IMG/VR virus record: IMGVR_UViG_3300048591_001383
Location: 1 to 23,017 of that record
Reading direction: 5' to 3' (one strand)
Length of the DNA: 23,017 nt
Origin: a virus
Shown here in pieces: positions 4,441 through 17,766 of this stretch. Positions within the stretch are counted from its first letter, which is position 1. Each line of letters begins with the position of its first letter. The translations under genes and the position numbers were made by a program. Under the pieces are notes generated by a model. That model worked only from the letters and a program-made list of their open reading frames with translations. It did no database searches and was not told where the DNA came from.

Positions 4441-4737
4441 ATGACAAAACTAGTAACCGGCATCGAGGCGATTCAGAGCGGGAAGCCGTTTAGATGGAAT
4501 AACCCTGAATCAGGAGTTATCAACCGATGGATTGATCCCAGAGATAAGGAAGAAATGATTAACGTGAGGTTACATGAATTGCTTGCGTGCAAATGGGAAA
4601 TCAAACAAGAGCCGAGGGAGTTTTGGATAGAGGTTAATTCGGTAGGGACACCTATAGTTGCAGATACTGAAGAATTTAATCCGTCTCACAGCGGCACAAA
4701 AGTAATCAAAGTCCGGGAGGTGATTAATGGAGAATGA
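4441..4737 (+). CDS. Hypothetical phage protein
   Basis: The product has 98 residues. The first half (GIEAIQSGKPFRWNNPESG, then LLACKWEIKQEPREFWI) resembles the layout of small phage proteins in which an AI-x-x-GKP-(F/I)-R strand-turn is followed by L-L-x-x-x-WEIK and REFW. Catalytic residues are not apparent. The ribosome site is AGAGGAA. Its TGA directly abuts the methyltransferase ATG, so the two genes are probably translationally linked. No function is claimed. Confidence 0.65.
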   Translation: MTKLVTGIEAIQSGKPFRWNNPESGVINRWIDPRDKEEMINVRLHELLACKWEIKQEPREFWIEVNSVGTPIVADTEEFNPSHSGTKVIKVREVINGE

Positions 4738-5466
4738 ATGTTAAATGGCTTGGATTTATTTAGCGGAATCGGAGGAATATCCTTGGCCTTGGCACCATGG
4801 GTCAGACCTATTGCCTACTGTGAAAGAGATCAATATGCCGCGTCCGTACTCATCAGCAGAATGTTATCAGGGGATCTGTCCGTCGCTCCAATATGGGATG
4901 ACGTGCGAACACTCAAGGGATGTTATCTTCCGCCGGACGGAGTTGACATCATCTACGGAGGTTTCCCCTGCCAGGATATTAGCATTGCAGGACATGGTAA
5001 AGGATTGGCAGGCGAGCGAAGTGGCTTATTTAGAGAGATCATTAGGCTTTGTCGCGAAATTCGACCAAGCTTCATATTCTTGGAGAACGTACCGGCAATT
5101 GCTTTTCGGGGGCTGGGAGACGTTGTCAGTGAAATTTCCGCGATGGGGTATGACTGTAGATGGACTGTTATGTCAGCCGGAAGCCTTGGAGCCTGTCACT
5201 TGCGTGAAAGATGGTGGTTACTTGCCTACTCCAATATTATCGGACAAAAAAAGGGGATTGAGAGGGACTCAGTGGGGTTATCAAACTTGCCCAACTTTAA
5301 GTCTGAAAGGAAATCTACCTGGACACCCAAAGGGTTTATTGAACCCAGAGTGGACCGAGTTGGCAATGGGATATTCAAAAGGTTGGACAGAATTGGTTCC
5401 CTTGGCAATGCAGTGGTTCCGATCCAAGCGCGGGAAGCATTCAAGTTATTGATGGGTATGAGGTGA
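4738..5466 (+). CDS. C5 cytosine-specific DNA methyltransferase
   Basis: The 242-residue protein has the ordered C5-methyltransferase motifs: I DLFSGIGG (6-13, AdoMet binding), IV GGFPCQD with nucleophile C78, VI FLENV with E116, VIII RERWW (R156-x-R158), and X GNAVVP (223-228). It transfers a methyl group from AdoMet to C5 of cytosine, most likely to shield phage DNA. The region between motifs VIII and X, where the target recognition domain sits, is only about 57 residues, so this is a short family member. GGAG lies 5 bases before the ATG. No cognate restriction gene is nearby. A second long frame (4745-5452) overlies almost the whole gene. Confidence 0.9.
   Translation: MLNGLDLFSGIGGISLALAPWVRPIAYCERDQYAASVLISRMLSGDLSVAPIWDDVRTLKGCYLPPDGVDIIYGGFPCQDISIAGHGKGLAGERSGLFREIIRLCREIRPSFIFLENVPAIAFRGLGDVVSEISAMGYDCRWTVMSAGSLGACHLRERWWLLAYSNIIGQKKGIERDSVGLSNLPNFKSERKSTWTPKGFIEPRVDRVGNGIFKRLDRIGSLGNAVVPIQAREAFKLLMGMR
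4745..5452 (+). CDS. Overprinted second protein inside the methyltransferase gene
   Basis: In the +1 frame relative to the methyltransferase an ATG 7 bases after its start opens 235 codons, ending 14 bases before its stop. The product reads like a real protein. It has SSTEVSPARILALQDMVKDW, then FDQASYSWRTYRQ, FPRWGMTVDGLLCQPEALEP, GGYLPTP, and LLNPEWTELAMGYSKGWTEL. I recognise the series (x-S-Y-S-W-R-T, W-x-x-x-P-R-x-G-M, L-P-T-P, LNPxWxExxMGxxxGWTxL) from phage proteins encoded with C5 methyltransferases and often annotated only as hypothetical. The shared GGAG ribosome site is 12 bases from this ATG. It may be translated separately, by reinitiation or by frameshift. Function unknown. Confidence 0.6.
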   Translation: MAWIYLAESEEYPWPWHHGSDLLPTVKEINMPRPYSSAECYQGICPSLQYGMTCEHSRDVIFRRTELTSSTEVSPARILALQDMVKDWQASEVAYLERSLGFVAKFDQASYSWRTYRQLLFGGWETLSVKFPRWGMTVDGLLCQPEALEPVTCVKDGGYLPTPILSDKKRGLRGTQWGYQTCPTLSLKGNLPGHPKGLLNPEWTELAMGYSKGWTELVPLAMQWFRSKRGKHSSY

Positions 5467-14129: not shown

Positions 14130-14693
14130 ATGCAAATTGTCACACTAAAAATCGAAGATTTGGTTTTTGACCCAAATAATGCTCGTAAACATGGTCAAAA
14201 AAACTTGGATGCCATAAAAGGATCACTGGTCAAATTCGGCCAGCAAAAACCAATTGTCGTAAATGAAAAAAATATCGTCCTTGCCGGCAACGGAACTCTT
14301 GAGGCAGCAAGACAACTTGGCTGGGATACGATTCAGTCCGTCGTGACCGATCTTGATAAGTTCAATCAGACGGCGTTCAGTTTGGCCGATAATCGTACTG
14401 CTGAGTTAGCTTCTTGGGATGAGGAGATTCTTGGTTCAAGTCTACGATCTTTACAGGGTGAGGAATATGACCTAAATGCCATTGGTTTTAGTGATGATGA
14501 TGTAATTGCGTTTTTGAGTGATTGGCATTCAGATATTGATAAAAATAGTAATGTTGAAAAAACAGATGAAAATCTCGACGGTATCACCTCGACGATAAAA
14601 ATTACTTGTCCACAAGAAATCAAAGATGAAGTTCTAATTTATTTAAAAGCAAAATTTTTGGAAGTTAGTTTCGAGGGTATTCACATTGGATAA
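14130..14693 (+). CDS. ParB-like (ParB/Srx fold) protein heading the deazaguanine operon
   Basis: The 187-residue protein has an N-terminal ParB/Srx domain at about 1-100. It shows DPNNARKHGQKNLDAIKGSL, FGQQKPIVV, LAGNGTLEAARQLGW (the nucleotide-binding GxGxxxAA loop) and SLADNRTAELASWDEEIL. This type often precedes or is fused to DNA methylases; here it stands alone with a ~45-residue C-terminal strand-helix module (STIKITCPQEIKDEV). Its stop overlaps the dpdA start by 8 bases. In bacterial dpd islands the ParB-like ATPase DpdB works with DpdA in inserting preQ0, so a DpdB-like role is inferred. A separate nuclease or partition role is possible. Confidence 0.75.
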   Translation: MQIVTLKIEDLVFDPNNARKHGQKNLDAIKGSLVKFGQQKPIVVNEKNIVLAGNGTLEAARQLGWDTIQSVVTDLDKFNQTAFSLADNRTAELASWDEEILGSSLRSLQGEEYDLNAIGFSDDDVIAFLSDWHSDIDKNSNVEKTDENLDGITSTIKITCPQEIKDEVLIYLKAKFLEVSFEGIHIG

Positions 14694-15507
14694 AGTGAAC
14701 ATCCTTGTTGGTTATCCCTATTTAAACAACAAACCATCACTTGAATTTTTTAAAAACAACATAAGCAGTATTAATTTATTGATTGATAGCGGCGCATTCA
14801 CAGCTTGGAAATCAGGAAAACCAATTAAAATTGACGACTATTGTCTTTTTTTGGAATCAATAAATTTTCCAACATTTGGTTATTTCACATTAGATGTGGT
14901 CGGTAATCCTCACGAAACAATGAAAAATTATGAAACAATGTTAAAAAGAGGATTTAAACCTATTCCTATTTTTACGCGTGGTGAAAGTTTATCGGTTTTG
15001 GAAGACTATTACAAAACAAGTGATATCGTGGCAATCGGTGGTTTGGTTCAAACTATTGGTAACAAGGGTTTTGTAAAAGGAATCATGAAACATGTAAACA
15101 AACGCAAGGTTCATTGGCTTGGTTTTTGTAACAAAGATTTTGTTAACCACTATAGACCGTTTTCGATTGATTCATCTTCATGGGAGTCTGGTGCTATTTT
15201 TGGATCCCTCGAGTTGTATATTGGAAAAGGAAAGTTTATTAGACTCGGGAAAAAAGATTTTTCACAAAAACCAAGGAAAGAAGTTATAGACCATATACAG
15301 TCTTATGGTTTTAAGATAAATGATTTTTCAAAAAATGAAAATTGGAGTGGTGGCAAATCCTTAAATAGGCAGCTTTGCGCAGCTAGTATTGTTCGTTATA
15401 TGTTGGATTTAAGAAAAATTTTAAATGTAAACTATTTTGCAGCAAGCGCCACAATGTTGGCTTTTACTTTGTTGTTAAATTCATTGGAAATGGAAAATAA
15501 TAAATGA
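14686..15507 (+). CDS. dpdA: DpdA-type DNA guanine transglycosylase
   Basis: The 273-residue protein starts at TTG, with GAGGG 8 bases upstream, inside the ParB gene end. It is a compact TGT-like barrel: LLIDSGAFTAW (D34), FGYFTLDVVGNP (D70), IPIFTRGE, VAIGGLV, HWLGFC, and FSIDSSSW (D162). The DSGAF and SIDSSSW signatures are those of phage DpdA proteins, which swap guanine in DNA for preQ0 or a derivative. It is shorter than tRNA TGT and lacks its C-terminal Cys zinc site. Which aspartates match the TGT base and nucleophile needs alignment. Overlap with queC is 4 bases (ATGA). The context of four preQ0 synthesis genes makes the call strong. Confidence 0.88.
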   Translation: MDKVNILVGYPYLNNKPSLEFFKNNISSINLLIDSGAFTAWKSGKPIKIDDYCLFLESINFPTFGYFTLDVVGNPHETMKNYETMLKRGFKPIPIFTRGESLSVLEDYYKTSDIVAIGGLVQTIGNKGFVKGIMKHVNKRKVHWLGFCNKDFVNHYRPFSIDSSSWESGAIFGSLELYIGKGKFIRLGKKDFSQKPRKEVIDHIQSYGFKINDFSKNENWSGGKSLNRQLCAASIVRYMLDLRKILNVNYFAASATMLAFTLLLNSLEMENNK

Positions 15508-16166
15508 AAACATTAATTGTTTTATCAGGTGGAATGGATTCGACCGTTGCTTTAGCGCAGTGTCTTGAGACAAATAATAAAGATAATATAGAGTCTATTA
15601 CTTTTAATTATGGTTCAAAACATAATGAAAGAGAAAACATTGCTGCAAAAAAAATATCGGATTTTTATGGAATAAAAAATAAATTGGTTTACCTTCCATT
15701 TATAAATGAGCTTTTTAAAAGTGATCTTTTATTAAGTGGCGGCAATATCCCAGAAGGTCATTATGCTGATCCAAGCATGAAAAAAACAGTTGTTCCATTT
15801 AGGAATGGCATCATGTTAGCTATTACTGCTGGCTATGCTGAATCAATAAACGCTAACAAAATCATTCTTGGAAATCATGTAGGTGATCATTCGATTTATC
15901 CTGATTGTACAAAAGAATTTACAGACCCAATGGCTGAAGCCATAAAAAACGGAACTTATACAAAAGTTGAATTGATAAATCCTTTTGGGAAAATAAACAA
16001 AACAGATATATGCAGAATTGGTTATAAATTAAATGTCCCGTTTGAATTAACTTGGTCATGTTATGTCGGCGGTGAAAAACATTGCGGTAAATGTGGCACT
16101 TGTTACGAAAGAAAAGAAGCATTTAATGATTCAGGAGTAAATGATGTCACTGAATATTCAGTGTAG
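15504..16166 (+). CDS. queC: QueC, 7-cyano-7-deazaguanine (preQ0) synthase
   Basis: The 220-residue protein has the PP-loop ATP pyrophosphatase motif SGGMDS (8-13), the family stretch VPFRNGIMLAITAGYA (97-112), GNHVGDHSIYPDC, and a zinc site C186, C194, C197, C200 (EKHCGKCGTC). It converts 7-carboxy-7-deazaguanine (CDG) with ATP and ammonia to preQ0. Length is normal for QueC with no fused amidotransferase domain, arguing against archaeosine-type (dG+) modification. The ATG overlaps the dpdA stop by 4 bases. Confidence 0.95.
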   Translation: MKTLIVLSGGMDSTVALAQCLETNNKDNIESITFNYGSKHNERENIAAKKISDFYGIKNKLVYLPFINELFKSDLLLSGGNIPEGHYADPSMKKTVVPFRNGIMLAITAGYAESINANKIILGNHVGDHSIYPDCTKEFTDPMAEAIKNGTYTKVELINPFGKINKTDICRIGYKLNVPFELTWSCYVGGEKHCGKCGTCYERKEAFNDSGVNDVTEYSV

Positions 16167-16578
16167 TAGAAAAATACATTTTTGTTCTGGGCATCGTGTT
16201 TTAAATCATGAAACCAAGTGTGCAAATCTACACGGTCACAATTATGTTGCTTGGTTTAATGCCGAGGCTGATTCACTAGACAGCATAGGTCGTATTATAG
16301 ATTTCTCTGTTTTAAAAGAAAAAATTGGTGGCTGGATAGATAAACATTGGGATCATACAACAATTATATTTCAAGACGATACTGACCTTATTAGCATTAA
16401 AGATAAATTGGAGAAAAATAAACCTGTTTGGATTTCCCCATTTAATCCAACCGCTGAAAATATGGCTAAATATCTTTTTGAAGTTGTTTGTCCGGACGTT
16501 TTAAAAGATACGGGTGTTTTTGTAACAGAAGTTATACTTTATGAAACAGAGAATTGTTATGCAAAAGTATCGTGTTAA
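16144..16578 (+). CDS. queD: QueD, 6-carboxytetrahydropterin synthase
   Basis: The 144-residue protein belongs to the PTPS/QueD family: HFCSGHR (H12, H17), C26 in TKCANLHGHNY with H30 and H32 as zinc ligands, DHTTI, and ETENCYA near the C-terminus. It converts 7,8-dihydroneopterin triphosphate to 6-carboxy-5,6,7,8-tetrahydropterin. Two ATGs in tandem (16141, 16144) are possible; AGGAG at 16133 lies 6 bases before the second, which is preferred. The start sits inside the queC end. Confidence 0.92.
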   Translation: MSLNIQCSRKIHFCSGHRVLNHETKCANLHGHNYVAWFNAEADSLDSIGRIIDFSVLKEKIGGWIDKHWDHTTIIFQDDTDLISIKDKLEKNKPVWISPFNPTAENMAKYLFEVVCPDVLKDTGVFVTEVILYETENCYAKVSC

Positions 16579-17185
16579 AGAAATATTTGGACCAACAATT
16601 CAGGGTGAAGGTTCCCAATCCGGAACTGTTGTTAATTTTTTGCGCTTTGCTGGTTGTAATCGATGGAACGGAATCTCTAGTTACAAAGAAAAATCTATTT
16701 GCAGTTTTTGTGACACAGATTTTGTTGGTGGAGTTAAGTTAACAAAAGAAGAAATTCTTATTAAGTTATCTCTTCTTGGTAATGTTAAAACTGTCGTTAT
16801 ATCAGGCGGAGAACCAACAATCCAACTAGACGAGACTCTTTGTCAATATCTAACAGATAACGGTTATATTTTACATTTAGAAACGAATGGCTCAAATAAC
16901 ATAGATCATATTTCTAAATATTTTTCACATATAACTGTCAGCCCAAAACAATCATTTACAGAGACAAAAATAAGCTTTGCTAATGATTTAAAAATACTTT
17001 GGCCAGCTATTTCCCCGGAAATAACCCCAGATCATTTTAAGGATTTTAAATCTAATAATAGATTTTTACAGCCTGTTTATGGAGATGTTTACGATCCAAA
17101 CTTAAAACAAACCATAGATAAATTGATTAGTATTGAAACTTGGCGGTTATCGTTACAAACACATAAAATTATAGGTGTTCAATGA
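16559..17185 (+). CDS. queE: QueE, 7-carboxy-7-deazaguanine synthase (radical SAM)
   Basis: From ATG 16559 the product has 208 residues; an in-frame ATG at 16541 would add six. 16559 puts YRVKEIFGPTIQGEG at the very start, as in known QueE. The cluster-binding cysteines are C33-x14-C48-x2-C51, the CX14CX2C variant found in QueE rather than the usual CX3CX2C of radical SAM enzymes. VISGGEPT supports AdoMet binding. It rearranges 6-carboxytetrahydropterin to CDG. It overlaps queD upstream and folE downstream (ATGA). Confidence 0.94.
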   Translation: MQKYRVKEIFGPTIQGEGSQSGTVVNFLRFAGCNRWNGISSYKEKSICSFCDTDFVGGVKLTKEEILIKLSLLGNVKTVVISGGEPTIQLDETLCQYLTDNGYILHLETNGSNNIDHISKYFSHITVSPKQSFTETKISFANDLKILWPAISPEITPDHFKDFKSNNRFLQPVYGDVYDPNLKQTIDKLISIETWRLSLQTHKIIGVQ

Positions 17186-17766
17186 TCAATGAAGAAAAAA
17201 TTGCAAGCCATTTCTTAGCTATAATGAAGGAGATTGGATTAAATACTGAAGATGATTCTTTGATTGATACACCAAAACGCGTTGCGAAAATGTACTCTAG
17301 GGAATTGTTTTATGGTTTGAACTCAGATAATTTTCCAAAAATAACTGTACAGGAAAATAAATTTAATTATGATCAAATGCTTGTGGAAAGCAATATAACA
17401 GTTAAGTCCCTGTGTGAGCATCATTTCGTTCCAATTATCGGAGCTTGTCATTTAGCTTATATCCCATCAAAAAAGATCATTGGTTTATCAAAGTTTAACC
17501 GTATTGTGGACTATTTTTCAAGACGACCTCAAGTTCAGGAACGTTTAACCAATGACATATTGGTTTGTTTAAAAGATGTTTTGGAAACAGATAATGTTGC
17601 TGTTGTTATTGATGCGGTTCATATGTGTGTAAAGTTAAGAGGGATTGAGCATAATAGCACTATAACTCGTACCAGTGCTATATCTGGAGTTTTTAAGAGT
17701 AGTGATGCAAGGTTTGAATTTTTTAATAGCATTCCCAAACCAAATAATCTTCATGATGTTATTTAA
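17182..17766 (+). CDS. folE: GTP cyclohydrolase I
   Basis: The 194-residue protein has DTPKRVAKMY (29-38), SLCEHHFVP with C78 and H81, a long conserved core (IGLSKFNRIVDYFSRRPQVQ), and VHMCVKLRG with C149. The zinc ligands C78, H81 and C149 keep the 71-residue spacing of E. coli FolE (C110/C181). It opens GTP to dihydroneopterin triphosphate, the first step of the deazaguanine route. It overlaps queE by 4 bases, and its 3' end overlaps the convergent gene on the other strand by 8 bases, so no classic terminator sits between them. Confidence 0.95.
   Translation: MINEEKIASHFLAIMKEIGLNTEDDSLIDTPKRVAKMYSRELFYGLNSDNFPKITVQENKFNYDQMLVESNITVKSLCEHHFVPIIGACHLAYIPSKKIIGLSKFNRIVDYFSRRPQVQERLTNDILVCLKDVLETDNVAVVIDAVHMCVKLRGIEHNSTITRTSAISGVFKSSDARFEFFNSIPKPNNLHDVI

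Follow-up and report, generated by a model that had tools for sequence, protein, structure and literature searches.

The stretch of DNA that we analysed (the window, 23,017 nt) is a fragment of a tailed phage, with terminase, primase and helicase genes, and it carries two reading frames that occupy almost the same bases of the same strand. The frame-0 product, here termed alpha, is a C5-cytosine methyltransferase, and the product of the +1 frame, termed beta, is nested within it (Table 1). The first-pass annotation had pointed to the coincidence of a methyltransferase frame with a second frame of 235 codons, and its coordinates proved exact; beta begins 7 bases 3' of the alpha start and ends 14 bases 5' of the alpha stop, so that the overlap is near-complete. 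From the sequence, the GGAG upstream is likely to serve both starts, and a TAA in the beta frame (4742–4744) stands directly 5' of the beta ATG. A five-codon ORF, ATGGAGAATGAATGTTAA (MENEC), running from the ATG at 4727 to 4744, also ends directly 5' of the beta start and is preceded by GGGAGGTGA at 4715–4723. This short ORF could act as a leader that couples translation to beta; such a leader did not prove general among relatives, to judge from the sequence upstream of their genes. Elsewhere in the window, at 14686–17766, lies a cluster that by PHROGs matches resembles phage 7-deazaguanine DNA modification, and guanine replacement may be a second modification of the phage DNA besides cytosine methylation.

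Table 1. Positions in the window of the overprinted methyltransferase frames, their motifs and the modification cluster.
Feature	Position	Strand	Basis or content
Alpha, C5-cytosine methyltransferase large subunit (242 aa, ATG start)	4738..5466	+	Motifs I–VIII and X; without IX; almost no target recognition domain
Beta, proposed small subunit with motif IX (235 aa, ATG start, +1 frame)	4745..5452	+	phrog_1008 match; openness and conservation tests
Alpha catalytic domain, motifs I–VIII (FSGIGG; FPCQ; ENV)	4738..5241	+	Pfam, M.HhaI alignment, hhalign, AlphaFold
Conserved beta core, beta residues 66–168	4940..5248	+	Conserved beyond alpha-imposed expectation
Beta motif IX (most likely), LNPEWTELAMGYSKGW, beta residues 199–214	5339..5386	+	Positional profile scans
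Alpha motif X, RIGSLGNAVVPIQAREAFKLL region	5389..5454	+	Second hhalign alignment to canonical motif X; confident C-terminal helix
GGAG, likely ribosome-binding site	4729..4732	+	Sequence
TAAATG, beta-frame stop then beta start codon	4742..4747	+	Sequence
7-deazaguanine cluster: queuine tRNA-ribosyltransferase-like (transglycosylase); QueC; QueD; QueE; GTP cyclohydrolase	14686; 15504; 16141; 16541; 17182		PHROGs

Alpha contains the motifs of a C5-cytosine methyltransferase, namely I, IV (PCQ), VI (ENV), VIII and X, and lacks motif IX and almost all of the target recognition domain (TRD), which a complete single-chain enzyme has between motifs VIII and X. Its residues 3–193 match positions 2–181 of the 324 positions of Pfam PF00145 (E = 1.1e-32), and in the same type of search many ordinary enzymes match approximately positions 1–322. 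The sequence alignment to M.HhaI covers motifs I–VIII only and ends at residue 168, and hhalign against canonical enzymes recovered motif X as a second alignment. In the AlphaFold model of alpha (pTM 0.76) the large domain is confident, with blocks mostly above 90, residues 172–222 are disordered and the motif X helix at residues 228–239 is again confident. Only about 50 low-confidence residues separate motif VIII from motif X in this model, which contains no structured small domain. The best Foldseek matches of the model were M.HhaI (E = 2.4e-14) and M.HaeIII (E = 4.4e-14). Because the PF00145 and M.HhaI matches are partial and residues 172–222 are unstructured, alpha is, as modelled, a large domain that has no small domain.

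Beta has a core at residues 66–168, read over alpha motifs IV–VIII, with a predicted helix, hairpins and the short patterns W[RK]T, GM..DG and LPTP. At its C-terminus the block LNPEWTELAMGYSKGW fits the C5 motif IX pattern (LNPxWxExxMGxxxGW). LPTP and this ending had both been picked out in the first-pass annotation and lie at beta residues 160–163 and 199–214; the GWT end had also been placed over the methyltransferase motif X, and the beta C-terminus does overlie the LGNAVVP of alpha. At the level of the DNA the motifs run in the order I–VIII (frame 0), IX (+1) and X (frame 0). Beta matches phrog_1008 ('DNA methyltransferase') with an E-value of 4.5e-17, as do 95 of the 96 aligned beta relatives, in agreement with the earlier suggestion of a phage family found alongside C5 methyltransferases; the Pfam and NCBIfam models gave no match. 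The phrog_1008 label does not reveal that its members come from the +1 frame within a methyltransferase gene and are without catalytic motifs.

When a profile of the beta block was scanned over 25 ordinary C5 methyltransferases it fell at or over motif IX in approximately 19, with the best position at motif IX, just before GNAV/GNSV, in about 18 and one overlapping out of register. In the reciprocal scan of 96 beta proteins, the profile of ordinary motif IX picked out the beta block in 76. Using hhalign between beta and the 25 ordinary enzymes, motif IX was aligned only as a non-significant second match, and the assignment therefore rests on positional scans of a 17-residue motif and on its position. 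In Streptomyces phage Lilbooboo a beta-type block is located just before motif X in one chain (KLSPEFAEWLMGLEPGW...ERIGNGVVPHQAF), as in ordinary enzymes. Judged from these sequence comparisons, the LNPxWxExxMGxxxGW block of beta is most likely motif IX. The AlphaFold model of beta alone was poor (pLDDT 60, pTM 0.24), with only the motif IX helix confident, and Foldseek found no structural match for this low-confidence model. A chain that needs its partner in order to fold could give such a stand-alone model, but this is no proof.

It had been claimed that the second product is not random, and that homologous genes should be searched for stops and for a lack of excess conservation in the +1 frame. 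We permuted the synonymous codons of alpha 10,000 times, keeping the alpha protein and its codon usage. None of the shuffled genes was as open in +1 as the real one; the longest open stretch reached at most 0.79 of the gene, compared with 0.97 observed, and the shuffled genes had a mean of 12.5 stops in this frame. We also fetched 80 relatives with the alpha protein alone, so that beta played no part in the selection, and analysed openness in 79 ORFs of more than 200 codons (that of the window and 78 fetched via the alpha frame only). The +1 frame of these ORFs had a mean of 2.6 stops against 9.5 expected, and its longest open fraction averaged 0.956 against 0.327 expected. It was open over at least 85% of alpha in 77 of the 79, and the +2 frame in none; in this control frame 17.0 stops were observed and 15.9 expected.

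Conservation gave a similar picture. The +1 residues were more similar to those of the window than expected from synonymous shuffling in all 90 comparisons (z 4.1–10.2, mean 6.1). The +2 control also displayed mild excess conservation, with a mean z of 2.9, so common descent accounts for some of the +1 signal. The excess was highest over beta residues 196–235, which contain motif IX (mean z 4.48), followed by residues 101–165 (mean z 3.35, above 2 in 91% of comparisons); it was modest over residues 1–100 (mean z 2.1–2.3) and absent from the variable stretch at 166–195 (mean z 0.87). Substitutions were further counted by codon position in 94 close pairs. In the motif I–VIII region the proportions (0.29–0.30/0.16–0.19/0.51–0.56) were the same as in the flanking genes (0.29/0.19/0.52), making these counts uninformative there. 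In the C-terminal third the substitutions shift towards the third position of beta, reaching 0.39/0.29/0.33 in the variable region. The second product is thus not random, its frame being conserved beyond the constraint from alpha, and the check on homologues came out in its favour. Both frames are real and conserved.

The overprinted arrangement recurs in phages of many hosts, in prophages and in some archaeal contigs, with alpha and beta occurring together in a fixed geometry. In phages of Mycobacterium, Vibrio, Paenibacillus, Klebsiella, Lacticaseibacillus, Bacteroides and Synechococcus, every alpha match that was picked has the beta core and motif IX in +1. In all of 233 loci a +1 ORF free of stops spans 60% or more of alpha, and in 193 it spans 90% or more. 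In 147 of these loci the first +1 ATG follows the alpha motif I start at a distance of 4 or 7 nt, and a stop stands directly 5' of the first beta-frame ATG in 136. A further 80 bacterial and archaeal loci were selected by the beta motif and show association only; nearly all have alpha in the partner frame, with a few cut by contig ends or frame-disrupted. The genome scan for beta used an alignment of five sequences; the alignment of 96 sequences was without a conserved patch. In the full-length PF00145 loci tested, the beta motif IX was absent from every frame, and in the alpha-type loci of the same set (L255, L257 and L258) it was present, always in +1. The same layout is seen in a separate overprinted C5 methyltransferase lineage from Pseudomonas (L277/L280), with a very canonical motif IX, RWLSGSERLRMMGFASGW, in +1, and in an enterobacterial prophage type (L289–L291), the +1 product of which matches 200 phage records.

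Several relatives depart from this layout. A few have one frame disrupted (L007, L190, L215 and L232). In mycobacteriophage Llama and its close relatives (L007:1501–2260) alpha and beta both change frame at about position 1868, and one ORF, common to several phages, fuses the N-terminal portion of beta with the C-terminal portion of alpha. This locus is annotated as two 'DNA methylase' genes, and the frame change could be a programmed frameshift, a split or decay. In the M.AquI-like locus of a Streptomyces Vashvirus (L006:1820–2876) the first ORF has motifs I–VIII, and the second, in +1, encodes a single chain that combines the beta core with motifs IX and X; a locus from Spirochaetia (L251) has a similar layout. 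The beta motif IX was joined to motif X only in these two, as detected with a regular expression in the former and an HMM in the latter, and we found no single-chain fusion of alpha and beta in one frame. At two further loci (L149 and L151) alpha is interrupted by a single in-frame stop, which follows codon 78, and +1 stays open; the stop may be a nonsense mutation, a recoded stop or a sequencing error. In E. coli ECCTRSRTH03 (L292:2991–4160), RefSeq calls the prophage-type methyltransferase incomplete, in two pieces, and annotates no +1 gene.

We propose that the two frames encode two chains of one C5-cytosine DNA methyltransferase resembling M.EcoHK31I, a reading to which we give a probability of about 0.86. 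Alpha would be the catalytic large domain, providing motifs I–VIII with the SAM site and the catalytic Pro-Cys, together with the motif X helix, and beta would supply the missing motif IX together with the small-domain scaffold that goes with it. Both chains would be made from the same mRNA region by independent starts at ATG 4738 and ATG 4745, for which ribosomes would probably use a single binding site. Two features suggest separate initiation, namely the beta-frame TAA immediately preceding the beta ATG and the start spacing, which is conserved. Beta would then dock on alpha and complete the DNA-binding cleft, and cytosines within some recognition sequence of the phage (or host) DNA would be methylated by the pair. 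M.EcoHK31I, in which motif IX alone is found in the smaller polypeptide, is the model for assembly and for joint activity. Phage self-methylation is a common measure against restriction, and protection of the phage from restriction would be the simplest purpose. Separate initiation, complex formation, activity of the pair only, a role for beta in recognition and the anti-restriction purpose are what we infer for this enzyme.

Two other explanations of a translated beta were considered, and both appear very improbable. In the first, translation would begin on alpha and slip into the beta frame, yielding one chain with motifs I–VIII from alpha and motif IX from beta; the first-pass annotation had likewise offered beta as the downstream part of a frameshift product. 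The order of motifs I–VIII, IX and X kept in the DNA is as this would predict, and the Streptomyces Vashvirus and Llama loci do look like frame changes within one enzyme. However, openness and conservation of +1 extend over the motif I–VIII region, where a frameshift product would have no need of them, alpha retains its own motif X in frame 0, and the stop directly before the beta ATG and the 4 or 7 nt start spacing in 147 of 233 loci point to a start of its own. We therefore rejected the fusion on the stop and on the conservation over motifs I–VIII.

In the second, just as improbable, beta would be a separate accessory protein, such as a regulator, an anti-restriction factor or a host-takeover factor, that merely overlaps the methyltransferase gene. 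The lack of a structural match and of a Pfam or NCBIfam family would agree with this. However, beta bears motif IX, which is exactly what alpha is missing, and accompanies alpha-type enzymes without IX rather than complete ones. The earlier proposal of a specificity or accessory factor came closest to the role we favour, and beta would be better described as the motif IX-bearing small-domain subunit of the methyltransferase itself. That the +1 frame is an unexpressed by-product of the codon and composition constraints of alpha is more improbable still; residues imposed by alpha do shape the +1 product and part of its conservation follows from alpha, but the synonymous shuffles rule out a chance ORF, the excess similarity holds in every comparison, +2 is closed, and phages of very different hosts show similar +1 openness. 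Barring some DNA- or RNA-level constraint outside the model, the shuffles and the similarity comparisons already refute this reading.

The two-chain reading would bear on how such genes are handled. Automated annotation drops one half of the pair; phPA-G lists only beta, and the Salmonella, E. coli and Acinetobacter records that we checked list only alpha. Cloning or classifying the annotated ORF only would probably give a non-working methyltransferase, and this could explain phage C5 methyltransferases described as 'inactive'. In prokaryotes it is rare for two genes to overlap at length on one strand and for both of their products to be functional and to complement each other physically. The overlap described here is old and widespread, and it would also be a compact system for studying the evolution of two proteins in one stretch of DNA. 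It is also possible, at somewhat less than even odds, that these loci form a large phage and prophage class in which the small domain of a once single-chain enzyme, comprising motif IX and probably target recognition, moved into a second frame with the motif order kept. If so, interdependent subunits would share one gene, be inseparable by recombination and be made together. The variable regions of alpha and beta occupy the same DNA, and in such a class a mutation there would alter both chains at once. In a literature of which our coverage was incomplete we found no published description of this phage-wide arrangement.

Of the known split enzymes, M.EcoHK31I recognises YGGCCR and M.AquI CYCGRG. 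The small-chain gene of M.EcoHK31I is said to lie inside the large-chain gene in another frame, and the chains are reportedly of about 176 and 309 aa. The larger chain of M.EcoHK31I has motifs I–VIII and X, with only motif IX in the smaller polypeptide, whereas the second chain of M.AquI has motif IX, motif X and half of the variable region (PMC3404938). As in M.EcoHK31I, alpha has motifs I–VIII and X without IX, and motif IX, as located by the positional profile scans, is in a separate small chain, a likeness set by motif layout. Beta is embedded in the alpha gene in +1, as the small chain of M.EcoHK31I is said to be in its own large-chain gene. Unlike in that enzyme, the two frames coincide almost end to end (235 and 242 aa), and alpha appears to be almost without a TRD, which the large chain of M.EcoHK31I is said to contain. 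The enzyme described here is also a phage enzyme, and the genes next to it include no recognisable restriction endonuclease as a partner. With M.AquI it shares the natural split of a C5 methyltransferase and the placing of motif IX in a second chain, but motif X lies in the alpha frame and not in the second chain, so the M.AquI layout is not that of this locus; the Streptomyces Vashvirus and Spirochaetia loci are closer to it. The single-chain enzymes M.HhaI and M.HaeIII are matched by alpha in their large domain and differ from it in that a single polypeptide carries both the TRD and motif IX. C5 methyltransferases that are split in nature are already known, and what is notable here is the near-complete overlap of the two frames and the unrecognised breadth of the arrangement.
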